From: Candidatus Omnitrophota bacterium
GTDB taxonomy: Bacteria; Ratteibacteria; UBA8468; B48-G9; JAFGKM01
Length of the DNA: 64,000 nt
Assembly: GCA_023819375.1 (NCBI GenBank)
Contig: JAMWDI010000003.1
Span: forward strand, 124,001 to 188,000
Direction: 5' to 3'
Shown: in pieces, positions 25,121 to 36,571 of the stretch
Layout of the letters: each line of letters opens with the position of its first letter
Position numbering within the stretch: the first letter of the stretch is position 1
The notes under the pieces: generated by a model
The model's input: the letters and a program-made list of their open reading frames with translations, nothing else
What the model was told of the DNA's origin: nothing
The model's database searches: none
Position numbers and translations under genes: made by a program

Positions 25121-26390
25121 GTTGAGACATAATAAAATCTATATACTAACGCCTATCTGTTTTTCTCTTTTTTCTTCTATTCTTTTTCTATAAAATGGAT
25201 TTGTTCTTACTGTCTGATATAATAATTCCTGTAATTTAACTATTTCTCTTTTAAGTCTACTGGATTTAATAAATTTGTATTGTTCAGTCAATTTTCTTTT
25301 TATTTCTTCATTTATTTCAGGACATTCCATAATCCTCTTATAAAGGGTTTTGGCTTTATCATATCTTTTTATTACTTTACTGCCTAATCTTTTCTTTTCT
25401 ATTAATTTCATCTGTGGTTGGAAAAAGTTTCTGTTTCATATTTCTAGTATCCAACCGTCTTCCTTACTATATGCCAGTTCTTTTGCTCTACATAACAATT
25501 GTCATTTTTCCTATAAGGTCTTGTTCTTGCAAATGTTATTTTATTTCTCTGACAATATCTTGTTAAATACAAATTTATATATCTGAATTTATACCTAATA
25601 TTGGAAAAGGAAATTGTTTTATTATCTTATTTAATCCTTCAAAAACTTTTTTGTGATTTATTCTTTACACATATTGTCTCTGTTCAACCAGTTAATATAT
25701 CTGTCGCATCAAGTGTCTGCACATATATCCCTTTTCCATCTCCTCCATTATGACTTACTAAATCCATCTCTATAAAACCCGCTCTTTTTTCGTCCCACTC
25801 ACTAAATGTCCTTATTGGTATCTGACTCTTTAATAAACTACCTGGTTTTGTCTTTTTCCCTCTTATTTCCCATTTCTTTTTCTCTTCTTTTAATATCCTA
25901 TCTATTGTCCGAGCACTTATCTTATTAAGTTTTCCCCTCGTCTCTTTATCTAATTTTATCTCATTATGCCTCTCTAAAACAGGTATTATATCCTTCATAT
26001 AATCTACCAATCTCTTACTACAGGGAAAGTCCAATATAGCCCATATCTTCTTTAATGCAACCAAGACATTCTCATCATAAATCTTTCTTTTACTTCTCTT
26101 TTTCAGTAAATTCCTTTCACCTATAAAAATAGTCCTTTTGCCATTATCATATACCAATACCTTCCTTCCGTAATTCCTTAAAACCCAACTGGCATAACAA
26201 CGATTATATCCTATCAAAGCAACTATCCCATCTAATATCTTTCCTTTCTCTTTTTTCTTCGCTTTTTGACACCTCTGTGCCATTATTTTTGTTATCTTCT
26301 TCCTCTCTGCCATCGTTAATTCCTCCATTTTTACCCCCTTGTTTTTCTTAACAAGGAGATGTTTTCCTATAGATTTCTATTTGACGCAAC
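25121..26390 (-). mobile_element. Decayed insertion sequence with degenerate inverted repeats
   Basis: An IS remnant of about 1.27 kb that carries one broken transposase. Its ends form degenerate terminal inverted repeats: 25121-25143 (GTTGAGAC to CTATA) and the inverted copy 26368-26390 (TATAGATTT to GCAAC) match at 17 of 23 positions, with nine consecutive matches at the inner edge. No clear target-site duplication can be seen. It lies next to a truncated DUF4258 gene, which it may have cut, and just upstream of the helicase-methylase cluster. Confidence 0.75.
25139..26328 (-). pseudogene. DDE-integrase-type transposase, inactivated
   Basis: The remnant reads as one transposase in pieces. 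Residues 1-214 are intact (26328 to about 25687): MAERKKITKIMAQR, the helical DNA-binding region CSKRLVDYMKDIIPVLERH and the start of the catalytic domain RAGFIEMDLVSHNGGDG. It then meets TGA where the family has TGW. The following stretch (about 25440-25680) still encodes TETICVKNKSQKS, then in another frame PFPILGINSD, RYCQRNKITFARTRPYRKN and CYVEQKNWHIVRKTVGY, but with stops and frameshifts. A last shift leads into FQPQMKLIEKKRLGSKV, which runs in frame to the end at 25139. At least one nonsense change, two frameshifts and small deletions make it non-functional. Confidence 0.88.
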
Positions 26391-26425
26391 GATTAATTTT
26401 CGTATAGAATTATTATGGCGCAATT

Positions 26426-26530
26426 TACGGAATTAATATAGAAAAAGATTTTGTAGAAAGAGTTGTATTAAATCCAGACAGATTAAGACAGGGATACGGG
26501 GATAAATTGATTGCACAAAAAAATGGATGA
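26426..26530 (+). pseudogene. DUF4258-like remnant (partner of DUF2283)
   Basis: A 34-codon open stretch without a start, reading INIEKDFVERVVLNPDR, GYGDKLIAQK and then a stop. It resembles the middle of small DUF4258 proteins, which usually sit directly before DUF2283 genes as toxin-antitoxin-like pairs. The 5' part is missing where the insertion-sequence end begins (26390), and the usual C-terminal beta region is lost because the frame stops inside the DUF2283 start. It therefore looks like a truncated, dead partner gene. Confidence 0.5.
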
Positions 26531-26738
26531 AAAAATAAAGTATAGTAAAGATGTTGACATTTTGACTATTGAGTTTTCAGAAAAACCAATAGAGTATGCA
26601 GAAGAAAAAGGAAACTTTATTATACATTTTTCAAAAGATGGAGATATAGTTTTATTAGAAATTCTTAATGCAAAAGATTTTTTATTAACTTCAACTGCTA
26701 CCATTTTAAAAGAATCAGAAGAAATTTTAATTGAATAA
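26523..26738 (+). CDS. DUF2283-family small protein
   Basis: A 71-residue protein with the DUF2283 pattern: KIKYSKDVDILTIEFSEKP near the N-terminus, then FIIHFSKDGDIVLLEILNAKDF. Such proteins are frequent next to DUF4258 genes and are presumed antitoxin-like, though biochemical proof is thin. The start is ATG 26523; an in-frame TTG at 26511 would add four residues. It overlaps the decayed DUF4258 remnant, so it is an orphan here. No good ribosome site is visible. Confidence 0.75.
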   Translation: MDEKIKYSKDVDILTIEFSEKPIEYAEEKGNFIIHFSKDGDIVLLEILNAKDFLLTSTATILKESEEILIE

Positions 26739-26985
26739 AACCTATAAAATTTAGATCCAATTTAACTCCAAAAGTCAGTATAATTTCAATATACACAATT
26801 TATATGTTTATATAATATCTGCCATTTATTTGAATTTAAATACAAAAAAATGAAGGATTATTAATATTAGTTTACAAAAAATTTATAAAAGAAATGAAAT
26901 CTGTTTATGAAAGTCCTTTAATTAGAATTTTTATACCTTAAAATATTTAAAACTTTACAAAAAACCGTGTGGAGATGTTTTCTTT

Positions 26986-27014
26986 TTGAAAATATTAAAC
27001 AAAGTTTATATAAT
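26986..27014 (+). promoter_or_regulatory. Strong promoter of the helicase-methylase cluster, near-leaderless
   Basis: TTGAAA (26986-26991), exactly 17 bases, then a perfect TATAAT (27009-27014). The helicase ATG at 27031 is 16 bases after the -10, so the transcript would start about 7-10 bases before the AUG, with no ribosome site in between. Confidence 0.65.
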
Positions 27015-27030
27015 ATAATTAATTTAAAAA

Positions 27031-30000
27031 ATGGCATTTATTACAAACAGAGGTAATGAAAATTTAGGAAAAAGATTAAAAGAACTTATAGAGAGAAGTG
27101 GTGAAATTAAGATTTTAACGGGATTTTTTTATTTTTCAGGAATTCAAGAATTATATGATACCTTAAAAAAATTAGACGAATCAGGTAAATTAAATAAAGA
27201 ATTTATTAAAATTCTTGTTGGACTTGAAGTTGATGAAGGAATAAATGGCCTTTATGAGTATAGAAAAGTCAGTAAAATTTATAATATAAACTTACTTAAA
27301 GATGATTTTTTAGCCTCTCTTAAAAAAGCATTTAATTCTCATGAACTTGACAAGAAAGAAGTTTATGAACAAGCAGAATTTTTTATAAAATTACTAGAAG
27401 AAGGAAAAATTATTATTAAGAAGACCAAAGAACCAACTCATGCAAAACTTTATCTTTTTAAGTTACAGGATAATATAACTCCAAGTTTATTTATTACAGG
27501 AAGTAGTAATTTAACAAAAGCAGGCCTTATTTCTCAAAATGAACTTAATGTTGAAATTAAAGATTTTGGTTTTGATGAAGCAGAAAAATTTTTTGATAAT
27601 TTTTGGACAACATCTATAGAATTAGAGCCCGATGATATTAAAAAAACTCTCCAACAAGAAACATTACTTAAAAAGGTTACACCATTTATTGCCTGGGCTT
27701 ATCTATTAAAACTTTATATTGATTTGCATACTGGGATAGTTTCCGAAGATAAAGAATATATTAAATACCTTTTAGAAAAATCTGGTTATAAACCTTACAA
27801 TTATGAAATTGAAGCAATTCTACAGGCAAAAAGGGTAATAGAAATCCATAATGGTGTTTTATTAAGTGATGTTACAGGGCTTGGTAAAACTATCATTGCT
27901 TGTATTGTGGCTAAACTTTTGAAGAAAAGAGGGATTGTCATATGCCCACCCCATCTTATTGGAGACGAAAATAAAGAATATGGTTGGAAAAAATATCTTG
28001 AAGATTTTAAATTACATGAATGGGAAGTTCGTTCTATTGGAAAATTGAATGAGGTTCTTGATTTTGTTAATAAGCATAAAGATATTGAGGTAGTTATTAT
28101 TGATGAAGGCCACAGATTTAGAAATGAAAATACAGAAAGGTTCCATTATCTTCATGAAATATGTAGAGGAAAACTTGTAATAATACTAACAGCAACACCA
28201 TTTAATAACAGACCATCTGATATATTTTCTCTTTTAAAATTATTTACAATACCTAAAAAATCAACAATAGTTCTTGATGAGGACTTAAAAAATAGATTTG
28301 ATTGGTATGAAAGTTTATTTAGAAAACTTTCATATATAAAGAATTATTACAAATCAAAAGATAAACAAAAAAGAGAGAGAGCAGAAAAGTATTATAATGA
28401 AATCTTTGGAGACAAAAAAATAGAAATTTCCAAAGTTCAAAACCAAGCAAGACAACTTGCAAAAACGATAAGGAGCATATTAGAACCAGTTGTTATAAGG
28501 AGAAATAGATTAGACCTTAAAAATTATGGAGAAGAAATTGATATATCAGAAGTTAAAGACCCAAAAGAACGCTTTTTTGAATTGACAAAAGAACAATCTA
28601 ATTTTTACGATGAAGTAATTGAAACATTTCTTGATATTGATAATGGTGGAAAATTTACAGGTGCAATATATATCCCTATAAAATATGAAAAAGGCTCTCT
28701 TTCTGATGATGAAATTGAAAAACTTCCTCCTGAAGAAAATTTTATGTATGTTTTCCAAAGGAATCTTTATGATTTTATGAGAAGATTATTAGTTAAAAGA
28801 TTTGAAAGTAGTTTTGGTGCATTTGAAGAAAGTATTAACCATTTTACAAATATTCATGAATCTGCTCTTAAATTCATAGATAAGACAAAAAAATTTATTC
28901 TAAATAGAAAACTTATGAAAGAAATTTTAGAACTGGAAGATGACGAGGAAATTTTGAAAAGATTAAAAGAATATGAAGAGGAACTTGAAAAGGGAGAGTT
29001 GGATAGTAAATATCATAAAATTTATGAAATAGACAAATTTAAATTTAAAGACAAATTTTTAGATGATTTAAAAAAAGACAAACAACTATTTGAAGATATA
29101 TTAAAAAAATTTCAAGATTTAAAACTTAAAGAAAATGACCCAAAAGTGGAAGAACTAATTAAATGTATAGAAGAATTTTTAAAAGATAGAAAAGTTGTAA
29201 TTTTTACTGAATATATTGATACTGCAAAATATCTTGAAGAAAAATTAGATAAATTTAAAGATATTATTCTTCCTGCATACGGGAATTTAAACAAATCAAC
29301 AATAAATGCAATCTATGAAAATTTTGATGCCCAGTATGAAAAACAAAAAGACCAATATAAAATACTTCTTGCAACTGATAAACTTTCAGAAGGTTTTAAT
29401 TTAAATAGAGCAGGTGTTGTTATAAACTATGATATCCCTTGGAATCCAGTAAGAGTTATTCAAAGAGTTGGAAGGATTAATAGAATTGCTAAAAAAGTTT
29501 ATGATGAAATCTACATAGTTAACTTCTTTCCAACTGAAAAAGGAGCGGATATTGTAAAATCAAGAGAGATTGCTCAAAACAAAATGTTTATGATTCATAA
29601 AGTTCTTGGAGAGGATGCCAAAATCTTTTCTCCCGATGAAGAACCACAGCCAGCACAATTGTATAGAAGATTAACAGAATATAGAGAAGAGGAAGAAGAA
29701 AGTTTCTTTACAAAAGTTAGAAAGGAATTTGAAAAAATTAAAAAAGAATATCCAGATGTTATAAAAGAGATTGAAAATATGCCATATAGAATAAAAGTTG
29801 CAAAAAATGGAGAAAAAGATGAGGTCTTTGTATTTATTAAAAAAGAAAATGACATTTTTATAGGATATAAAGATTATAATGAAAAAATGCCAGAAGTAGT
29901 AAGTTTTGACGAAATTTTTGACAAAGTAAAAGTTGAGAATAAAGACGAAAAATCTCTTCCTTTAAGTGAAAATTTCTGGCAAAATTATTACCAAATTATA

Positions 30001-30357
30001 GAAGAAAAAGAATTTAAAAAACTACATTTACCAAAAGGAATAGATACGTCAGAGAGGGCAAAAAATCTATTAAAATCACTTATTGATATTGAACAATTAA
30101 AACCTTATCAAAATTTTATTTCAACTATAATTGATGATATACAATATTTTGGGACTCTATCAGAATATATTCTTGGAGAGATTGCTGACTGGGAGAAATA
30201 CTATAAAGATGGAATATGGGAGATTGATAAAATTATTGAAAAAATTGAAAATTTAAAAGATGAAATAGGAGAAAATTTTCTTGAAAAAGCACAAAAATAT
30301 TTAAAAGATAAAAAGGAAACTGTTATAATAGCAATAGAAAATAGAAAAAATGCTTGA
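27031..30357 (+). CDS. PLD-nuclease/SNF2-type helicase fusion (putative defence protein)
   Basis: An 1108-residue ATP-dependent DNA motor with an N-terminal phospholipase-D-like domain. The HKD-type half-site is PTHAKLYLF (about residue 136), followed by TGSSNLTKAGLISQNELNVE. The helicase core has Walker A TGLGKTIIAC (about 284), the DExH box IIDEGHRF (about 357), motif III LTATPFNN (about 388), and in the second half FTEYIDTAKYLEEKL and QRVGRINRIAKK (about 812). A charged ~250-residue insert separates the two RecA lobes. The C-terminal ~200 residues are unassigned. It overlaps the methylase gene by eight bases. PLD-helicases of this type occur in phage-defence and restriction modules, so a restriction role is inferred. 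Confidence 0.85.
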   Translation: MAFITNRGNENLGKRLKELIERSGEIKILTGFFYFSGIQELYDTLKKLDESGKLNKEFIKILVGLEVDEGINGLYEYRKVSKIYNINLLKDDFLASLKKAFNSHELDKKEVYEQAEFFIKLLEEGKIIIKKTKEPTHAKLYLFKLQDNITPSLFITGSSNLTKAGLISQNELNVEIKDFGFDEAEKFFDNFWTTSIELEPDDIKKTLQQETLLKKVTPFIAWAYLLKLYIDLHTGIVSEDKEYIKYLLEKSGYKPYNYEIEAILQAKRVIEIHNGVLLSDVTGLGKTIIACIVAKLLKKRGIVICPPHLIGDENKEYGWKKYLEDFKLHEWEVRSIGKLNEVLDFVNKHKDIEVVIIDEGHRFRNENTERFHYLHEICRGKLVIILTATPFNNRPSDIFSLLKLFTIPKKSTIVLDEDLKNRFDWYESLFRKLSYIKNYYKSKDKQKRERAEKYYNEIFGDKKIEISKVQNQARQLAKTIRSILEPVVIRRNRLDLKNYGEEIDISEVKDPKERFFELTKEQSNFYDEVIETFLDIDNGGKFTGAIYIPIKYEKGSLSDDEIEKLPPEENFMYVFQRNLYDFMRRLLVKRFESSFGAFEESINHFTNIHESALKFIDKTKKFILNRKLMKEILELEDDEEILKRLKEYEEELEKGELDSKYHKIYEIDKFKFKDKFLDDLKKDKQLFEDILKKFQDLKLKENDPKVEELIKCIEEFLKDRKVVIFTEYIDTAKYLEEKLDKFKDIILPAYGNLNKSTINAIYENFDAQYEKQKDQYKILLATDKLSEGFNLNRAGVVINYDIPWNPVRVIQRVGRINRIAKKVYDEIYIVNFFPTEKGADIVKSREIAQNKMFMIHKVLGEDAKIFSPDEEPQPAQLYRRLTEYREEEEESFFTKVRKEFEKIKKEYPDVIKEIENMPYRIKVAKNGEKDEVFVFIKKENDIFIGYKDYNEKMPEVVSFDEIFDKVKVENKDEKSLPLSENFWQNYYQIIEEKEFKKLHLPKGIDTSERAKNLLKSLIDIEQLKPYQNFISTIIDDIQYFGTLSEYILGEIADWEKYYKDGIWEIDKIIEKIENLKDEIGENFLEKAQKYLKDKKETVIIAIENRKNA

Positions 30358-33300
30358 AGATAAAATTAACTCTCTTATTTCTGATTTTTCTAATGGTAAT
30401 CTTATTGCTTACCTTGAAGAAAAAAATAAGAATTTTACTTTTTACAAAGAAGATAAAAACCTACTTTCTTATCAGAGCGAAACTTTTAGTGAAATTTATA
30501 AAATTGCAGATATTAAACTTGAGGATGAAACAAATTTTGCAGTTTTCACTATAAGAACAACAAAGGAATTAACAGAAAGAAGCAGTAAAAAAAATCAATT
30601 TGAATTAGGTAAAAAAATCCTTAAAAATGAAGGTTTTGATGCTGGTTTTTTTGTTTTCTATGATGAAAATAAAAATTTTAGGTTTTCACTTATTCATTCA
30701 ATTTACAAAGGAACAAGAAGAGAATTTAGCCATTACAAAAGATATACCTATTATGTTGAAAAAGATGCACCTTACAGAACATTCAAAGAATCCTTATTTA
30801 AACTCCAATTAACTAATCTTGAAGGAGTAAAAGATGCTTTCAGTGTAGAAAAAGTTACTGATGAATTTTTTAGTGCATATAAATATGCTCTTTATGAGAT
30901 TATTATGAAAAATATATGGGGCAATAATATTACATATCAGCAGAAACACTCTTTTGCTCAACAATTACTTTCAAGAATAATGTTTATTTATTTTATCCAG
31001 AAAAAGGGTTGGCTAAAATGGAAAGGGTATGTTCAGGATAAGGCATATATTAAAAATTTATGGTTAAAGTATAAAGAGCAGAAAACTTCTAATGACAGTT
31101 TTTATTCTGTTTGGTTATCCAGTCTGTTCTTTGGTGCTTTTAATAAAAAATCTCAATTAATACACAAAAATTTGCCAGAAGAAATACAAGAATCTTTTAG
31201 AATAATGCCCTATTTAAATGGAGGATTGTTTTCAAAAACAGATTTAGATGAATTAGGTTTTGATGTTCCTGATTGGATTTTTGAATGGCTATTTGAGCCT
31301 GATGAGAAAGGTAGTGATAAAAGAAAAGGGTTTTTAGAAATATTTAACTTCACCACAGATGAGTCCCAGCCTTTAGATGTTGAAGTAGCAGTTGATCCTG
31401 AGATGCTTGGAAAAGTTTATGAGTCTTTAATCTCAGAAGAAGAAAGGGGAAAAGCAGGAATATTTTATACTCCAAGGGTTGAGATTGATTTTATGTGCAG
31501 AATTTCCCTTACAGAATACCTTGCGAGTGAGACAAAAATAAATAAAGAAAAGATTATTGATTTTATTTTTGACCCTCATAATAAAATTCTTCAATTTTCA
31601 GAAGAAGAATTAAAAGAGATAAGAGAAAAACTGGATAAGGTAAAAATTGTTGATCCAGCAGTTGGTTCAGCATCATTCCTTGTTGGTATGATGAATATCC
31701 TTGTAGAACTTCACTCAGTATTAACTGAAAAGATTGAAAAAAGAGAGGAAAACCTTTTTGCTTTAAAGCAAAGAATTATCCAGGAAAATCTCTATGGCGT
31801 TGATGTAAAGGATTGGGCTTGTATGGTTGGAGAATTAAGATTGTGGCTTTCTCTAATTATAGAAACTGAAGAAAAATATATGGATATCTATACAAAGCCA
31901 CTTTTACCAAATCTAAATTTTAAAATAAGGCAAGGCGATTCACTTGTTGAAGAAATTGGAGGAGTCCAGTTAAGTTTAAGAAGGGAAACTCCAAGATACT
32001 TACCAAAATCAATTGAAACAAAAATCAAAGAACTTATAGATAAGAAAAATGCCTTTTTCTCAGGTCAAAGAAGTGCAGATTTAAGAGAAATTGAAGAAAT
32101 TGAAAAACTTGAGCATGATATTTTTACTGAGATTTTGGAATCAAAAATTGAAGACTTTTCCAAAAAAATTGAAAATCTTGAAAAAAATAAAACAGATTTA
32201 GAAGGTCAAAAAGATGTTTTTGACAAAGAAGATGAAAAAGCCAAACAGGAAATAAAAAATATTGAATCTGAAATTGAAGAACTAATAAAAGAAAAAGAGA
32301 AATACAAATCAGGATTAGCGAATCTTAAACAAAAAGCCAAAAAGGATTACTTTCTTTGGGAGGTTGATTTCGCAGAAGTATTTGCTGAAAGAGGTGGTTT
32401 TGATATTGTGATAGGTAATCCTCCTTATGTAAGGCAGGAAATGATTGCGCCGCCTTTGGAAAACAAAAATAATTATACTGATGAGGAATGGAGAAAATTA
32501 AAAAGCGAATACAAAGAAAAACTTATTAACTCAGTTAAAAATATCTGGCCTTATGTTAAAAAGATAGATAAAAAAAGTGATTTATATGTTTACTTTTATT
32601 ATCATGGACTATCACTTTTAAAGCCAAAGGGAATTTTCTGTTTTATAAATTCAAATTCATGGCTTGATGTAGGTTATGGTGCAGGTCTTCAAGAATTTTT
32701 ATTAAAAAATATGAAGCCAATTTATATAATTGACAATTTAAAAAAGCGTTCCTTTAAAGAAAGTGATGTAAACACAGTTATTGTTTTAATCCAAAGACCA
32801 GAAAAAAAACTAGATGATTATACAATAAAATTTGTAGCCTTTAAAAAACCATTTGAAGATGTAATAAATGCAGAGGTTATAAAAAGAATTGAAAAGGCAA
32901 ATAAACCTATTTTTGATGATGAAGATTTTAGAATATTTCCAAAAACAAAAAGAGAGCTTCTGCTTGAAGGTGTTGAAGAGCCTGAAGAAGAAGGTTTAAT
33001 TAAAGACCCAGAACTACTTCTTTATATTGGCAACAAGTGGGGTGGAAAATATTTAAGGGCACCTGAAATTTATTTTAAAATTTTGGAAAAAGGAAAAGGG
33101 AAACTTGTAAAATTGGGAGATATTGCGGAGGTAAGGCGTGGCTTTACAACAGGTGCGAATGAATTCTTTTATCTTGAGCCAATTGGAATGACGGTAAAAG
33201 AGGTTGTGGAGATAGCAGAGAAAAATCCAGATACTTTAATTCCTGTAAAGAACAGTGCAGGCTGGGAAGGAGAAATTGAGGCAAAGTTTTTAAAACCAGT

Positions 33301-34003
33301 GATAAAAAGCTCAAGAGAGCTTAAAACAATAATTGTAAGACTTGAAGATTTAAATCACCTTGTCTTTATGTGCCATAAATCTGAAAAGGAATTGAGGGGA
33401 ACAAAGGCATTAGAATATATAAAATGGGGAGAAAAACAGAAATATCATGAATTGGAGACAATGAGAAATAGAAATCCTTGGTTTGCTCTGAATTTTAAAA
33501 TGACAAAAATTTTAATGTTAAGAGCAAGCGCTGATAGGCCAGCATTTTATATTTCTGAAAAAAGTATTTTTCATGATCAAACCTTTTATTCTGTAAATCT
33601 TAAAAATCAAGAATTTGAAGAAATTTTAGGAATGCTGTTTAATAATACTTTTACTAATTTTTTATCCAGGGAAATTGAAAGTGGTGCAAGTTCATCACTG
33701 GGGCAAGGAGTGAAATGGTCTGCGGTATATGAATCAAGAAGATTATTAGTATTAGTTCCGAACACAATACTAAAGAAGGACTTACCACTCATAAAAAGAA
33801 TGCCAAGCTCCATCTTCACCGAACTCGGTTTCGACCCAGATAAACCCATTCGTGAGCAGGAGCCAAATCCACTTCCTGACAGAAAAGTCCTTGATGATAT
33901 TGTCTTTGATGCCCTTGGCTTAACCGAAGAAGAAAGAAAAGAAGTTTACTGGTCAGTTGCAGAACTGGTAAAAAATAGATTAGAAAAAGCGAGGAGTGTA
34001 TGA
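30350..34003 (+). CDS. Giant Eco57I-type DNA adenine methylase
   Basis: A 1217-residue class I SAM-dependent DNA methyltransferase. The cofactor motif is IVDPAVGSASFLVGMM (about residue 434) and the N6-adenine catalytic motif is IGNPPYVRQ (about 689). GIFYTPRVEIDFMCR is the usual pre-motif helix. A long coiled coil (about 590-665) is inserted between motif I and NPPY. The N-terminal ~170 residues (AVFTIRTTKELTERS and DAGFFVFYDENKNFRFSLI) resemble the extra domain of type IIG-like and BREX/DISARM-associated methylases. The last ~300 residues probably read the DNA target (ADIAEVRRG is absent but GDIAEVRRGFTTGANEFFYL is similar). No specificity subunit is nearby. Its start overlaps the helicase stop. 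Confidence 0.9.
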   Translation: MLEDKINSLISDFSNGNLIAYLEEKNKNFTFYKEDKNLLSYQSETFSEIYKIADIKLEDETNFAVFTIRTTKELTERSSKKNQFELGKKILKNEGFDAGFFVFYDENKNFRFSLIHSIYKGTRREFSHYKRYTYYVEKDAPYRTFKESLFKLQLTNLEGVKDAFSVEKVTDEFFSAYKYALYEIIMKNIWGNNITYQQKHSFAQQLLSRIMFIYFIQKKGWLKWKGYVQDKAYIKNLWLKYKEQKTSNDSFYSVWLSSLFFGAFNKKSQLIHKNLPEEIQESFRIMPYLNGGLFSKTDLDELGFDVPDWIFEWLFEPDEKGSDKRKGFLEIFNFTTDESQPLDVEVAVDPEMLGKVYESLISEEERGKAGIFYTPRVEIDFMCRISLTEYLASETKINKEKIIDFIFDPHNKILQFSEEELKEIREKLDKVKIVDPAVGSASFLVGMMNILVELHSVLTEKIEKREENLFALKQRIIQENLYGVDVKDWACMVGELRLWLSLIIETEEKYMDIYTKPLLPNLNFKIRQGDSLVEEIGGVQLSLRRETPRYLPKSIETKIKELIDKKNAFFSGQRSADLREIEEIEKLEHDIFTEILESKIEDFSKKIENLEKNKTDLEGQKDVFDKEDEKAKQEIKNIESEIEELIKEKEKYKSGLANLKQKAKKDYFLWEVDFAEVFAERGGFDIVIGNPPYVRQEMIAPPLENKNNYTDEEWRKLKSEYKEKLINSVKNIWPYVKKIDKKSDLYVYFYYHGLSLLKPKGIFCFINSNSWLDVGYGAGLQEFLLKNMKPIYIIDNLKKRSFKESDVNTVIVLIQRPEKKLDDYTIKFVAFKKPFEDVINAEVIKRIEKANKPIFDDEDFRIFPKTKRELLLEGVEEPEEEGLIKDPELLLYIGNKWGGKYLRAPEIYFKILEKGKGKLVKLGDIAEVRRGFTTGANEFFYLEPIGMTVKEVVEIAEKNPDTLIPVKNSAGWEGEIEAKFLKPVIKSSRELKTIIVRLEDLNHLVFMCHKSEKELRGTKALEYIKWGEKQKYHELETMRNRNPWFALNFKMTKILMLRASADRPAFYISEKSIFHDQTFYSVNLKNQEFEEILGMLFNNTFTNFLSREIESGASSSLGQGVKWSAVYESRRLLVLVPNTILKKDLPLIKRMPSSIFTELGFDPDKPIREQEPNPLPDRKVLDDIVFDALGLTEEERKEVYWSVAELVKNRLEKARSV

Positions 34004-34497
34004 AATATTTAATCTATGCAGCTTATGGTTCGAATTTACTTAAAGAAAGATTTATTGTTTATATAAAAGGTGGCTATTTTGAGAATAGACATTATGAAGG
34101 TAGTTCTGATAAATCAGATCCGGAAGATTTAGGTTGGATATATGTTCCTCACAGATTATATTTTGCCAAGAAATCTCCTACATGGGATAATAAAGGGGTT
34201 GCTTTTTTATCTTGTAAAAAAGAGGAAAATCCAGAATATCATGCAATAGTTCGTTTATGGAAAATTTCTGAAAAACAATTTGAAGATTTACATAAGCAAG
34301 AGGGACTAAAATGGTATCATAAAATTATGTTGCTTGGAGAAAAAAATGGATTACTAATAAAAACATTTACAGGTTGCTGGGAAAATGAAAAACAAGAGCC
34401 TTCTGAAAAATATCTCAATATTATAAAAAAGGGATTAAAGGAAACAACCGATTGGAATGAACAAAAAATTGAAGAATATATCAAGAAGTTTTTGTAA
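34000..34497 (+). CDS. GGCT-like (gamma-glutamylcyclotransferase-fold) protein
   Basis: A 165-residue protein with the GGCT fold signature YAAYGSNL (residues 6-13) and the catalytic Glu in DLHKQEGLKWYHKI (Glu101), matching the D-x-QEG block of human GGCT. Members cyclise gamma-glutamyl or related amides to 5-oxoproline-type products, yet many bacterial ones have unknown substrates. It overlaps the methylase stop as ATGA, so it is co-translated with the defence-like pair. The link is odd for a metabolic enzyme and suggests a role in the same system, for example acting on a small molecule or on a modified protein end. That is inference. Confidence 0.8.
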   Translation: MKYLIYAAYGSNLLKERFIVYIKGGYFENRHYEGSSDKSDPEDLGWIYVPHRLYFAKKSPTWDNKGVAFLSCKKEENPEYHAIVRLWKISEKQFEDLHKQEGLKWYHKIMLLGEKNGLLIKTFTGCWENEKQEPSEKYLNIIKKGLKETTDWNEQKIEEYIKKFL

Positions 34498-34507
34498 ATC
34501 TATAAAA

Positions 34508-35248
34508 ATGAAATTTAAACCAGATTTACTTTGGCTTGGCGAAAAATGGCTTGAATCCAAAATCCAGAGGATGCAGAATCTTCTTAAAATAGCCCTTCCA
34601 GATGAGGCGCTCTACAGGGAAATAATGCTTTCTCTCGGTTATCCGAAAAATAAGGTTAATTTTTTGGAATTGGCTTTGATAACTCCATATGCAGAAATAA
34701 AAAAATTAAAAGAAAAAACTACAATACAACAGGCACTTTTATATAGAGCAGGATTTATAGATGAAAAAGAGGGATTACCTGAAAATTTTGATTTTTCATT
34801 AAGGATGGACAAAAGTATATGGGAATATAAAGGAATAAGACCTGCAAACTATCCAGAAAAAAGAATTAAAGGTATATCCCCTCTCCTATCAGAAAGTATA
34901 GAAAAAGGATTGGTTAATTTCTTTCTTGAAAAAATAAAATCTCAAACAAAAAATAAGAATGTTAAATCTGCTTTAAAAAATATAATGAATTTTAAAGGTA
35001 TTGGGATTCAGAGAAAAGAGGAGATGTTTTTCAATATTATTATGCCTTTTATGATTGTTTTTACAGAAAATAGAGATATCAAAAAATTTCTAAAATATAT
35101 GTTTGAAAACTATCCACCTCTTGCTCAAAATAAAATTATAAAGTCATTTAATGTTCAATATCCTGAAATCAAACTGAAAAATGTCAAAGCTTATATGGGT
35201 GCTATATTTTTTCAATCTAAGATTCAACATTTTCCAAAAGATGTTTGA
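34508..35248 (+). CDS. Half-length DUF2851-family protein
   Basis: A 246-residue protein from ATG 34508, ten bases after the GGCT-like gene. It matches the C-terminal half of DUF2851 proteins: ALYREIMLSLGYPKNKVNF, then QQALLYRAGFI, GIRPANYPEKRIKG and KGIGIQRKEEMFFNIIMPF. Full family members are about 400-450 residues, so the N-terminal half is missing and this is either a truncated gene or a natural short form. The family has no proven function. It belongs to the operon by spacing. The frame continues past its TGA into a methylase-tail remnant in the same frame. Confidence 0.7.
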   Translation: MKFKPDLLWLGEKWLESKIQRMQNLLKIALPDEALYREIMLSLGYPKNKVNFLELALITPYAEIKKLKEKTTIQQALLYRAGFIDEKEGLPENFDFSLRMDKSIWEYKGIRPANYPEKRIKGISPLLSESIEKGLVNFFLEKIKSQTKNKNVKSALKNIMNFKGIGIQRKEEMFFNIIMPFMIVFTENRDIKKFLKYMFENYPPLAQNKIIKSFNVQYPEIKLKNVKAYMGAIFFQSKIQHFPKDV

Positions 35249-35320
35249 ATTGACCAGTTAGTTTACAAATTGTATGATTTAACAGAAGAAGAGATAAGAA
35301 TAATAGAAGAAAAAAATTAA
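35249..35320 (+). pseudogene. Orphan C-terminal tail of an Eco57I-type methylase
   Basis: Directly after the DUF2851 stop, and in the same frame, 23 codons read IDQLVYKLYDLTEEEIRIIE and end at TAA. This is the well-known closing helix of many Eco57I-type R-M methylases (typically ID-x-LVYELYGLTEEEI). No methylase body precedes it, so it is a leftover of another methylase gene lost by recombination. The large methylase in this cluster ends differently (FDALGLTEEERKEVYW). Confidence 0.6.
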
Positions 35321-35791: not shown

Positions 35792-36571
35792 ATGTGTAGA
35801 TTGTTTGGGATAGTTGCGAATAAAAAGGTTGATATAAAGTTTTCAATGTTAGAGGCAAGTAGGAGTTTTAAATTACAAGGTAAAAAGAATCCAGATGGTT
35901 GGGGAGTTGGATGGTATGAAGAAGGTAAAGTTAAAATTGTAAAATATGGAGAAAATGCATTTTATTCAAATAGATTTGATGAACTTGTAAAACAACTTAA
36001 AGCAGAAATTATAATAGCACATGTCAGAGATGCATCTTGCGGAAATACATCAGATGAAAATGCTCATCCATTTGGATATAATAACTGGATATTTGCTCAT
36101 AATGGAACGATAAATAAAAAAAGAATAGAGAATTTATTAAAAGAACCTTATAGTCAGAATTTTACAAGTGAGCCAATAGATAGTGAAATTTATTTTAGAT
36201 ATATAATTCAGTGTATTGAAGAGAAGAAAGATGTAATAAAAGGCATAGAAGAAGGTGTTAAAGAGGTGATAAAAGAAGGATGTTGTGGAGCGAATTTTTT
36301 ACTGTCAGATGGTGAAAAACTATATGCCTTTAAGTATGGAAGAGATTTATTTTATTTAAAGAGAGACAAATTAACAGGTCTATCTTTTAAATCAAAAGAA
36401 ACAAATTTAAATGCACTTATTAAATCAAAAATGGCTTCTTCTGAAAAGGCGATACTTGTTGCTACTGAAAGATTGACTGATGAGAACTGGCAAATTTTAA
36501 ATGATGGAGACCTTCTTATAATTGATAAACTACTTCAAATAAACATAAAGAAACTTAATTTATATTTGTAA
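35792..36571 (+). CDS. Class II glutamine amidotransferase-like protein
   Basis: A 259-residue Ntn-hydrolase of the GATase_4 group. The catalytic Cys follows the initiator Met in MCRLFGIVANK. PDGWGVGWYEEGKVKI, IIAHVRDASCGNTSDENAHPF and WIFAHNGTINKKRIE are the glutamine-site motifs. It has only the glutaminase domain, like YafJ, and no synthetase partner, so its amide substrate is unknown. No signal peptide. It is the last gene before tRNA-Leu on this strand. Confidence 0.9.
   Translation: MCRLFGIVANKKVDIKFSMLEASRSFKLQGKKNPDGWGVGWYEEGKVKIVKYGENAFYSNRFDELVKQLKAEIIIAHVRDASCGNTSDENAHPFGYNNWIFAHNGTINKKRIENLLKEPYSQNFTSEPIDSEIYFRYIIQCIEEKKDVIKGIEEGVKEVIKEGCCGANFLLSDGEKLYAFKYGRDLFYLKRDKLTGLSFKSKETNLNALIKSKMASSEKAILVATERLTDENWQILNDGDLLIIDKLLQINIKKLNLYL

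Follow-up and report, generated by a model that had tools for sequence, protein, structure and literature searches.

Four genes that overlap or abut one another within a 64,000-nucleotide stretch of DNA (here called the window) raise the question of whether they make up one new defence system, as a sequence-only reading had proposed, or a restriction-type pair of helicase and methylase accompanied by genes of a looser kind. We favour, with a probability of roughly 0.6, a modular system resembling restriction-modification (RM), in which the methylase body can be swapped, a DUF2851 protein serves as partner and a slot takes up cargo.

The cluster and its helicase-methylase pair

All four open reading frames and their junctions were found again where they had been placed before (Table 1). 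Helicase and methylase overlap by eight bases, methylase and GGCT share an ATGA, and ten bases separate the GGCT and DUF2851 genes; the DUF2851 frame has its first ATG at 34457, but the start common to the homologues, ten bases past the GGCT stop, most likely marks the beginning of the gene. Of the strong promoter claimed ahead of the cluster, the site itself stood, being the top-scoring one of its region with 11 of 12 consensus matches, but promoter-like sites overall were at chance level (52 against 50.6 in shuffled sequence).

Table 1. Features of the cluster, in window positions
Feature	Positions	Strand	Basis or remark
Sigma-70-like promoter (candidate)	26986-27014	+	TTGAAA, 17, TATAAT; very short leader would precede ATG
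PLD(HKD)-SNF2 helicase/translocase, 1108 aa	27031-30357	+	ORF list, Pfam, PADLOC, motifs, homologues with adjacent methylase
PLD (about residues 38-192) and helicase (about 253-821) parts of the 1108-aa protein	27031-30357	+
Eco57I-type N6-adenine methylase, 1217 aa	30350-34003	+	motif I at residue 436, NPPY at about 690
Methylase N-terminal segment, residues 1-155, putative docking domain	30350-30814	+	co-variation with helicase
Coiled-coil-like insert in methylase, residues 586-662	32105-32335	+	weak Pfam/SMC-like matches
GGCT-fold protein, 165 aa, optional cargo	34000-34497	+	predicted fold, catalytic Glu E101 kept
Half-length DUF2851 protein, corresponding to the C-terminal half of the family in Pfam	34508-35248	+	recurs with window-type methylase body
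Orphan N6-methylase 3' end (IDQLVYKLYDLTEEEIRIIEEKN*), fossil tail bounding cargo	35249-35320	+	translation of 72 bases

Just 5' of the promoter site (26420-26740) lie remnants that we take to be a DUF4258/DUF2283 pair, and a minus-strand frame of 214 residues at 25684-26328 resembles a truncated transposase, with no Pfam family above threshold. Shortly 3' of the GGCT gene, positions 35792-36571 hold a gene for a class II glutamine amidotransferase (GATase); in a Pyrococcus island, GGCT and class II GATase genes are likewise adjacent (PMC5126054). Farther away, a minus-strand gene at 43918-45627 matches the CARF/beta-galactosidase fusion profile of PADLOC over residues 15-136 (E 7e-26), possibly through the glycosidase part only.

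The fusion of PLD nuclease and SNF2 helicase and the large Eco57I-type methylase with its coiled-coil-like insert, both described from the sequence before, are borne out by Pfam and by motifs. In the helicase, PLDc_2 is joined to SNF2/Helicase_C, the PADLOC model ‘HKD+Snf2’ matches residues 21-940, and the PLD motifs (HxK, GSSN and E), GLGKT, DEGH and motif VI are intact; the methylase matches the Eco57I methylase family of Pfam and retains motif I and NPPY. These catalytic motifs of PLD, helicase and methylase are kept across 16-17 homologues, and the two genes are found side by side on plasmids, in genomes and on viral contigs as well. Intact nuclease, motor and methylase motifs in adjacent genes are what an RM-like pair calls for, and, as judged from its sequence, restriction-modification is the most likely mode of action for the pair, in agreement with the restriction-type pair suggested earlier.

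The nearest solved chains to the methylase are of the BrxX type and match weakly. Relatives of its body were absent from the phages searched, and a prospective search of two phyla revealed no further copies of the window-type body. Among the six window-type methylases, three (loci L022, L128 and L129; genomes G051, G562 and G419) are interrupted by a frameshift or stop, the cause being decay, phase variation or assembly error. Traces of related systems were seen as well: G003 carries a fragment 88% identical to the C-terminus of the window methylase, and in L165 (G399 contig 24, 1626-2161) an internal deletion joins a helicase N-terminus to a methylase C-terminus, behind this fusion come another gene and the orphan tail of a methylase, the locus as a whole being a fossil remnant of this system. 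In the window's genus, loci L030 (G003) and L023 (G005) share their chromosomal position behind a radA-like gene but differ in the defence genes found there.

Exchange of methylase bodies

Across 16 loci, helicase similarity followed the similarity of methylase residues 1-150 closely (Mantel r 0.956, P 2e-4), with r falling to 0.10 (P 0.17) for residues 161-690 of the same loci; sliding windows placed the sharp fall at residues 150-160. The window-type body was found paired with three types of helicase, each time behind the matching N-terminus, and loci L199 and L200 display a clean swap of the body (helicase 31%, N-terminus 23%, body 78%). Sixteen independent loci on viral contigs gave r values of 0.934 for the N-terminus and 0.774 for the body, in the same direction with a weaker contrast. 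As the N-terminal segment and the helicase gene adjoin on the DNA, linkage contributes to their correlation; the breakpoint lies well inside the methylase gene and not at its start, a position that points to a need for the N-terminus to fit the helicase. From this pattern we infer that the N-terminus docks the helicase, while the body would be exchangeable. The system shows where restriction-like helicase-methylase pairs swap parts, and the likely docking segment named here suggests a site for building functional hybrids.

DUF2851, GGCT and the cargo slot

The methylase and DUF2851 searches covered the same 386 genomes, together with inspection of loci. A half-length DUF2851 gene lies 3' of the window-type methylase body in all six loci with a readable 3' flank, namely the window, G051, G383 (cut by a contig edge), G419, G562 and G655; a seventh member, G005, was left out of the count, its contig breaking off within the methylase gene. 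What stands between the two genes varies: GGCT in the window and G051, a metallo-beta-lactamase with an uncharacterised gene in G383, a two-gene cassette of an uncharacterised 305-residue protein and DUF5131 in G419, Schlafen-AlbA in G562, and AAA_13 with a Y1 transposase in G655. Loci with other methylase bodies contained DUF2851 in one case out of ten (G719), which differs from 6/6 with a hypergeometric P of 9e-4 in this small set of loci, assembled within the analysis. Since DUF2851 is present in 6/6 loci despite the varying cargo, it is the recurrent partner and GGCT the optional one, and DUF2851, which a single paper in the literature searched mentions, gains a specific partner to test; to judge by its distribution, it probably acts as an accessory of the methylase body.

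Apart from the window-type body, DUF2851 was found in G719, in G465 beside a PLD-SNF2 helicase, in G470 and G399 at DUF1156/DUF499 loci and in G024 near a toxin-antitoxin pair, and as a pseudogene in G520. The half-length described before was confirmed, as the Pfam match (PF11013) covers profile positions 153-305 of 375 and not the full domain; the homologues begin at the same point, so this is a natural half-length form. Its role is a guess, given that an AlphaFold prediction (two sequences) reached a pLDDT of 38.7; a PDB profile search revealed nothing meaningful, and scans of viral contigs revealed no relatives.

For the GGCT protein, the Pfam match (AIG2_2) lies slightly under the cut-off, and the AlphaFold model (pLDDT 95.6) finds its best Foldseek matches in human GGCT (E 3e-8). 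E101 aligns with the human catalytic E98 and is invariant in 10 orthologues, so that model and alignment support the predicted GGCT fold with its catalytic Glu intact, as had been read from the sequence. In both GGCT and DUF2851, third codon positions are the most divergent, indicating constraint at the protein level.

One argument for a new defence system in which all four genes, GGCT among them, are obligate is a distant genome, that of Brevinematales spirochaete G051 (L022/L051), in which the same order is found with identities of 48% for the helicase, 60% for the methylase (broken there by its frameshift or stop), 65% for GGCT and 54% for DUF2851; the kept active-site Glu and the protein-level constraint on GGCT also speak for it. 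Among the loci examined, however, that genome and the window are the only two in which the order occurs as a unit, and unrelated cargo takes the place of GGCT in the other four of the six loci (G419, G562, G655 and G383). Scanning the genome collection for GGCT uncovered at least 12 orthologues (57-73% identity); among the matches listed, only the one from Brevinematales (1/12) adjoins helicase, methylase and DUF2851, whereas the other 11 stand without any of them, several in housekeeping surroundings and two (L044 and L049) near other genes that look defensive from their context. None of the helicase-methylase loci on viral contigs has a GGCT gene, nor did viral-contig scans with GGCT as query reveal relatives. 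Homologues on actinobacterial plasmids are distant (26-32% identity), and the Nocardia one that was inspected lies outside any RM locus. GGCT is optional, interchangeable cargo. An obligate four-gene system was therefore rejected, as GGCT is replaced or absent elsewhere, and we regard it as highly improbable. The sequence-only reading had made its four-gene idea depend on both smaller genes being conserved with the pair; DUF2851 recurs with the methylase body and GGCT does not, so that half of what was to count against the idea has been found.

The variety of accessory genes and the housekeeping contexts of GGCT orthologues would also suit an ordinary defence island, in which the pair has chance neighbours and no functional link to them, but DUF2851 in 6/6 testable loci and the tight gene overlaps render this improbable. 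The main rival is that half-length DUF2851 travels with, or assists, a mobile unit that includes a Y1 REP-type transposase and inserts at methylase 3' ends, and is not a defence component. In G024, G655, G719 and G470 the gene immediately 5' of DUF2851 encodes such a transposase, and G520 has a fragment of one; at L127, L130, L150 and L151 the transposase gene touches the start of the half-length DUF2851 gene or runs into it; in G719, tail repeats (95 bp, 92%) enclose transposase and DUF2851. Against it, the window, G051, G419 and G562 have an intact and constrained DUF2851 with no transposase beside it, and DUF2851 stays while the cargo changes, which makes this explanation unlikely, if less so than the preceding two.

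If the system is modular, as we prefer, the methylase would mark host adenines, and the PLD-SNF2 protein would dock on methylase residues 1-155, translocate along unmarked incoming DNA and cut it with its HKD nuclease in defence of the host. Recombination near residue 155 would move the methylase body between helicase engines; the body would bring along its own 3' partner, the half-length DUF2851, which may assist or regulate it, and the slot between the two would hold interchangeable accessory genes, here GGCT, with a presumed accessory role.

The boundary of the cargo offers a further view of this exchange. In translation, the 72 bases after the window DUF2851 gene give the C-terminal end of an N6-methylase, and a degenerate pattern of such tails gave 50 matches in the 386 genomes, the reversed control giving 0. 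In the loci examined, 32 tail matches end full-length proteins, the criterion being an open frame of over 250 residues ahead of the tail; another 22 are orphans, some of them at contig edges or in split genes. Two tails flank a short insert in six loci (L151, L044, L166, L155, L185 and L173) as direct repeats of 66-145 bp with 84-95% identity; the inserts include Y1 transposase and DUF2851 in L151, GGCT in L044, PIN and ASCH in L185 and RhuM in L173. In five of the six, L044 being the exception, the paired copies are closer to each other than to the other tails compared. As a single tail is left in the window and the window methylase ends differently, an insertion there amounts to an interpretation of a fossil. 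Tentatively, methylase 3' ends may be recurrent attachment sites at which cassettes of defence genes enter and exit, possibly driven by Y1 transposase-DUF2851, with the repeat regenerating the methylase end; one helicase engine would thus be able to swap methylase bodies at residue 155 and cargo at the tail of the methylase. The analysis in this way marks out methylase 3' ends as putative sites of repeated entry for accessory defence genes and offers a mechanism of defence-island turnover that can be tested.

Comparison with known systems

The closest likeness is to the Type-2 BREX-related systems (Hma-like, DUF499-centred), which have an HKD nuclease N-terminal to a Swi2/Snf2 helicase, an N6-methylase, DUF499 and DUF3780 (PMC12839542). 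The PLD-helicase fusion, found as claimed, is thus not distinctive, since it is already known as their effector. The window shares the HKD-Snf2 helicase and an N6-methylase with them, and half-length DUF2851 occurs also at loci with DUF1156/DUF499 genes; the window methylase, in contrast, is of the Eco57I type, and the flanking window proteins scanned gave no match to the DUF499 ATPase, the DUF1156 methylase or DUF3780.

DISARM and BREX membership was rejected, as their partners are missing among the neighbouring genes, where the absence of DrmB, PglZ, BrxC and HsdS noted in the sequence-only reading holds. With DISARM of the DrmD and DrmMI class, the likeness lies in a helicase match to DrmD (NCBIfam, 140 bits, far under the curated cut-off of 610) and methylase matches to DrmMI profiles; matches of the helicase to DrmA are likewise below the curated cut-off, and neither DrmA nor DrmB (DUF1998) was matched among the flanking proteins. 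In the PADLOC check proposed earlier, the helicase was thus recognised and the DISARM partners were missing from the neighbourhood. The methylase shares core and size with BREX PglX/BrxX and type IIG methylases, yet PglZ and BrxC had no match among the 18 window proteins scanned, BrxL is absent from the neighbours, and the N-terminal segment of the window copy carries, as read, no clear ExK motif.

SauUSI, a type IV enzyme, combines a PLD nuclease with a helicase-like ATPase. It forms a dimer held by the nuclease, translocates driven by ATP and shreds DNA (PMC7913695), and may by analogy serve as a mechanistic model for nuclease and translocase, although SauUSI cuts methylated DNA, whereas the window system encodes a methylase alongside. 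Regarding the tails, PMC3031569, citing Nobusato 2000, describes RM genes inserted with a long target duplication; direct repeats of tens of bases around inserted genes are common to both cases, but, compared with that account, the end of an N6-methylase gene serves as the repeat here time and again, and what is inserted is an accessory gene.
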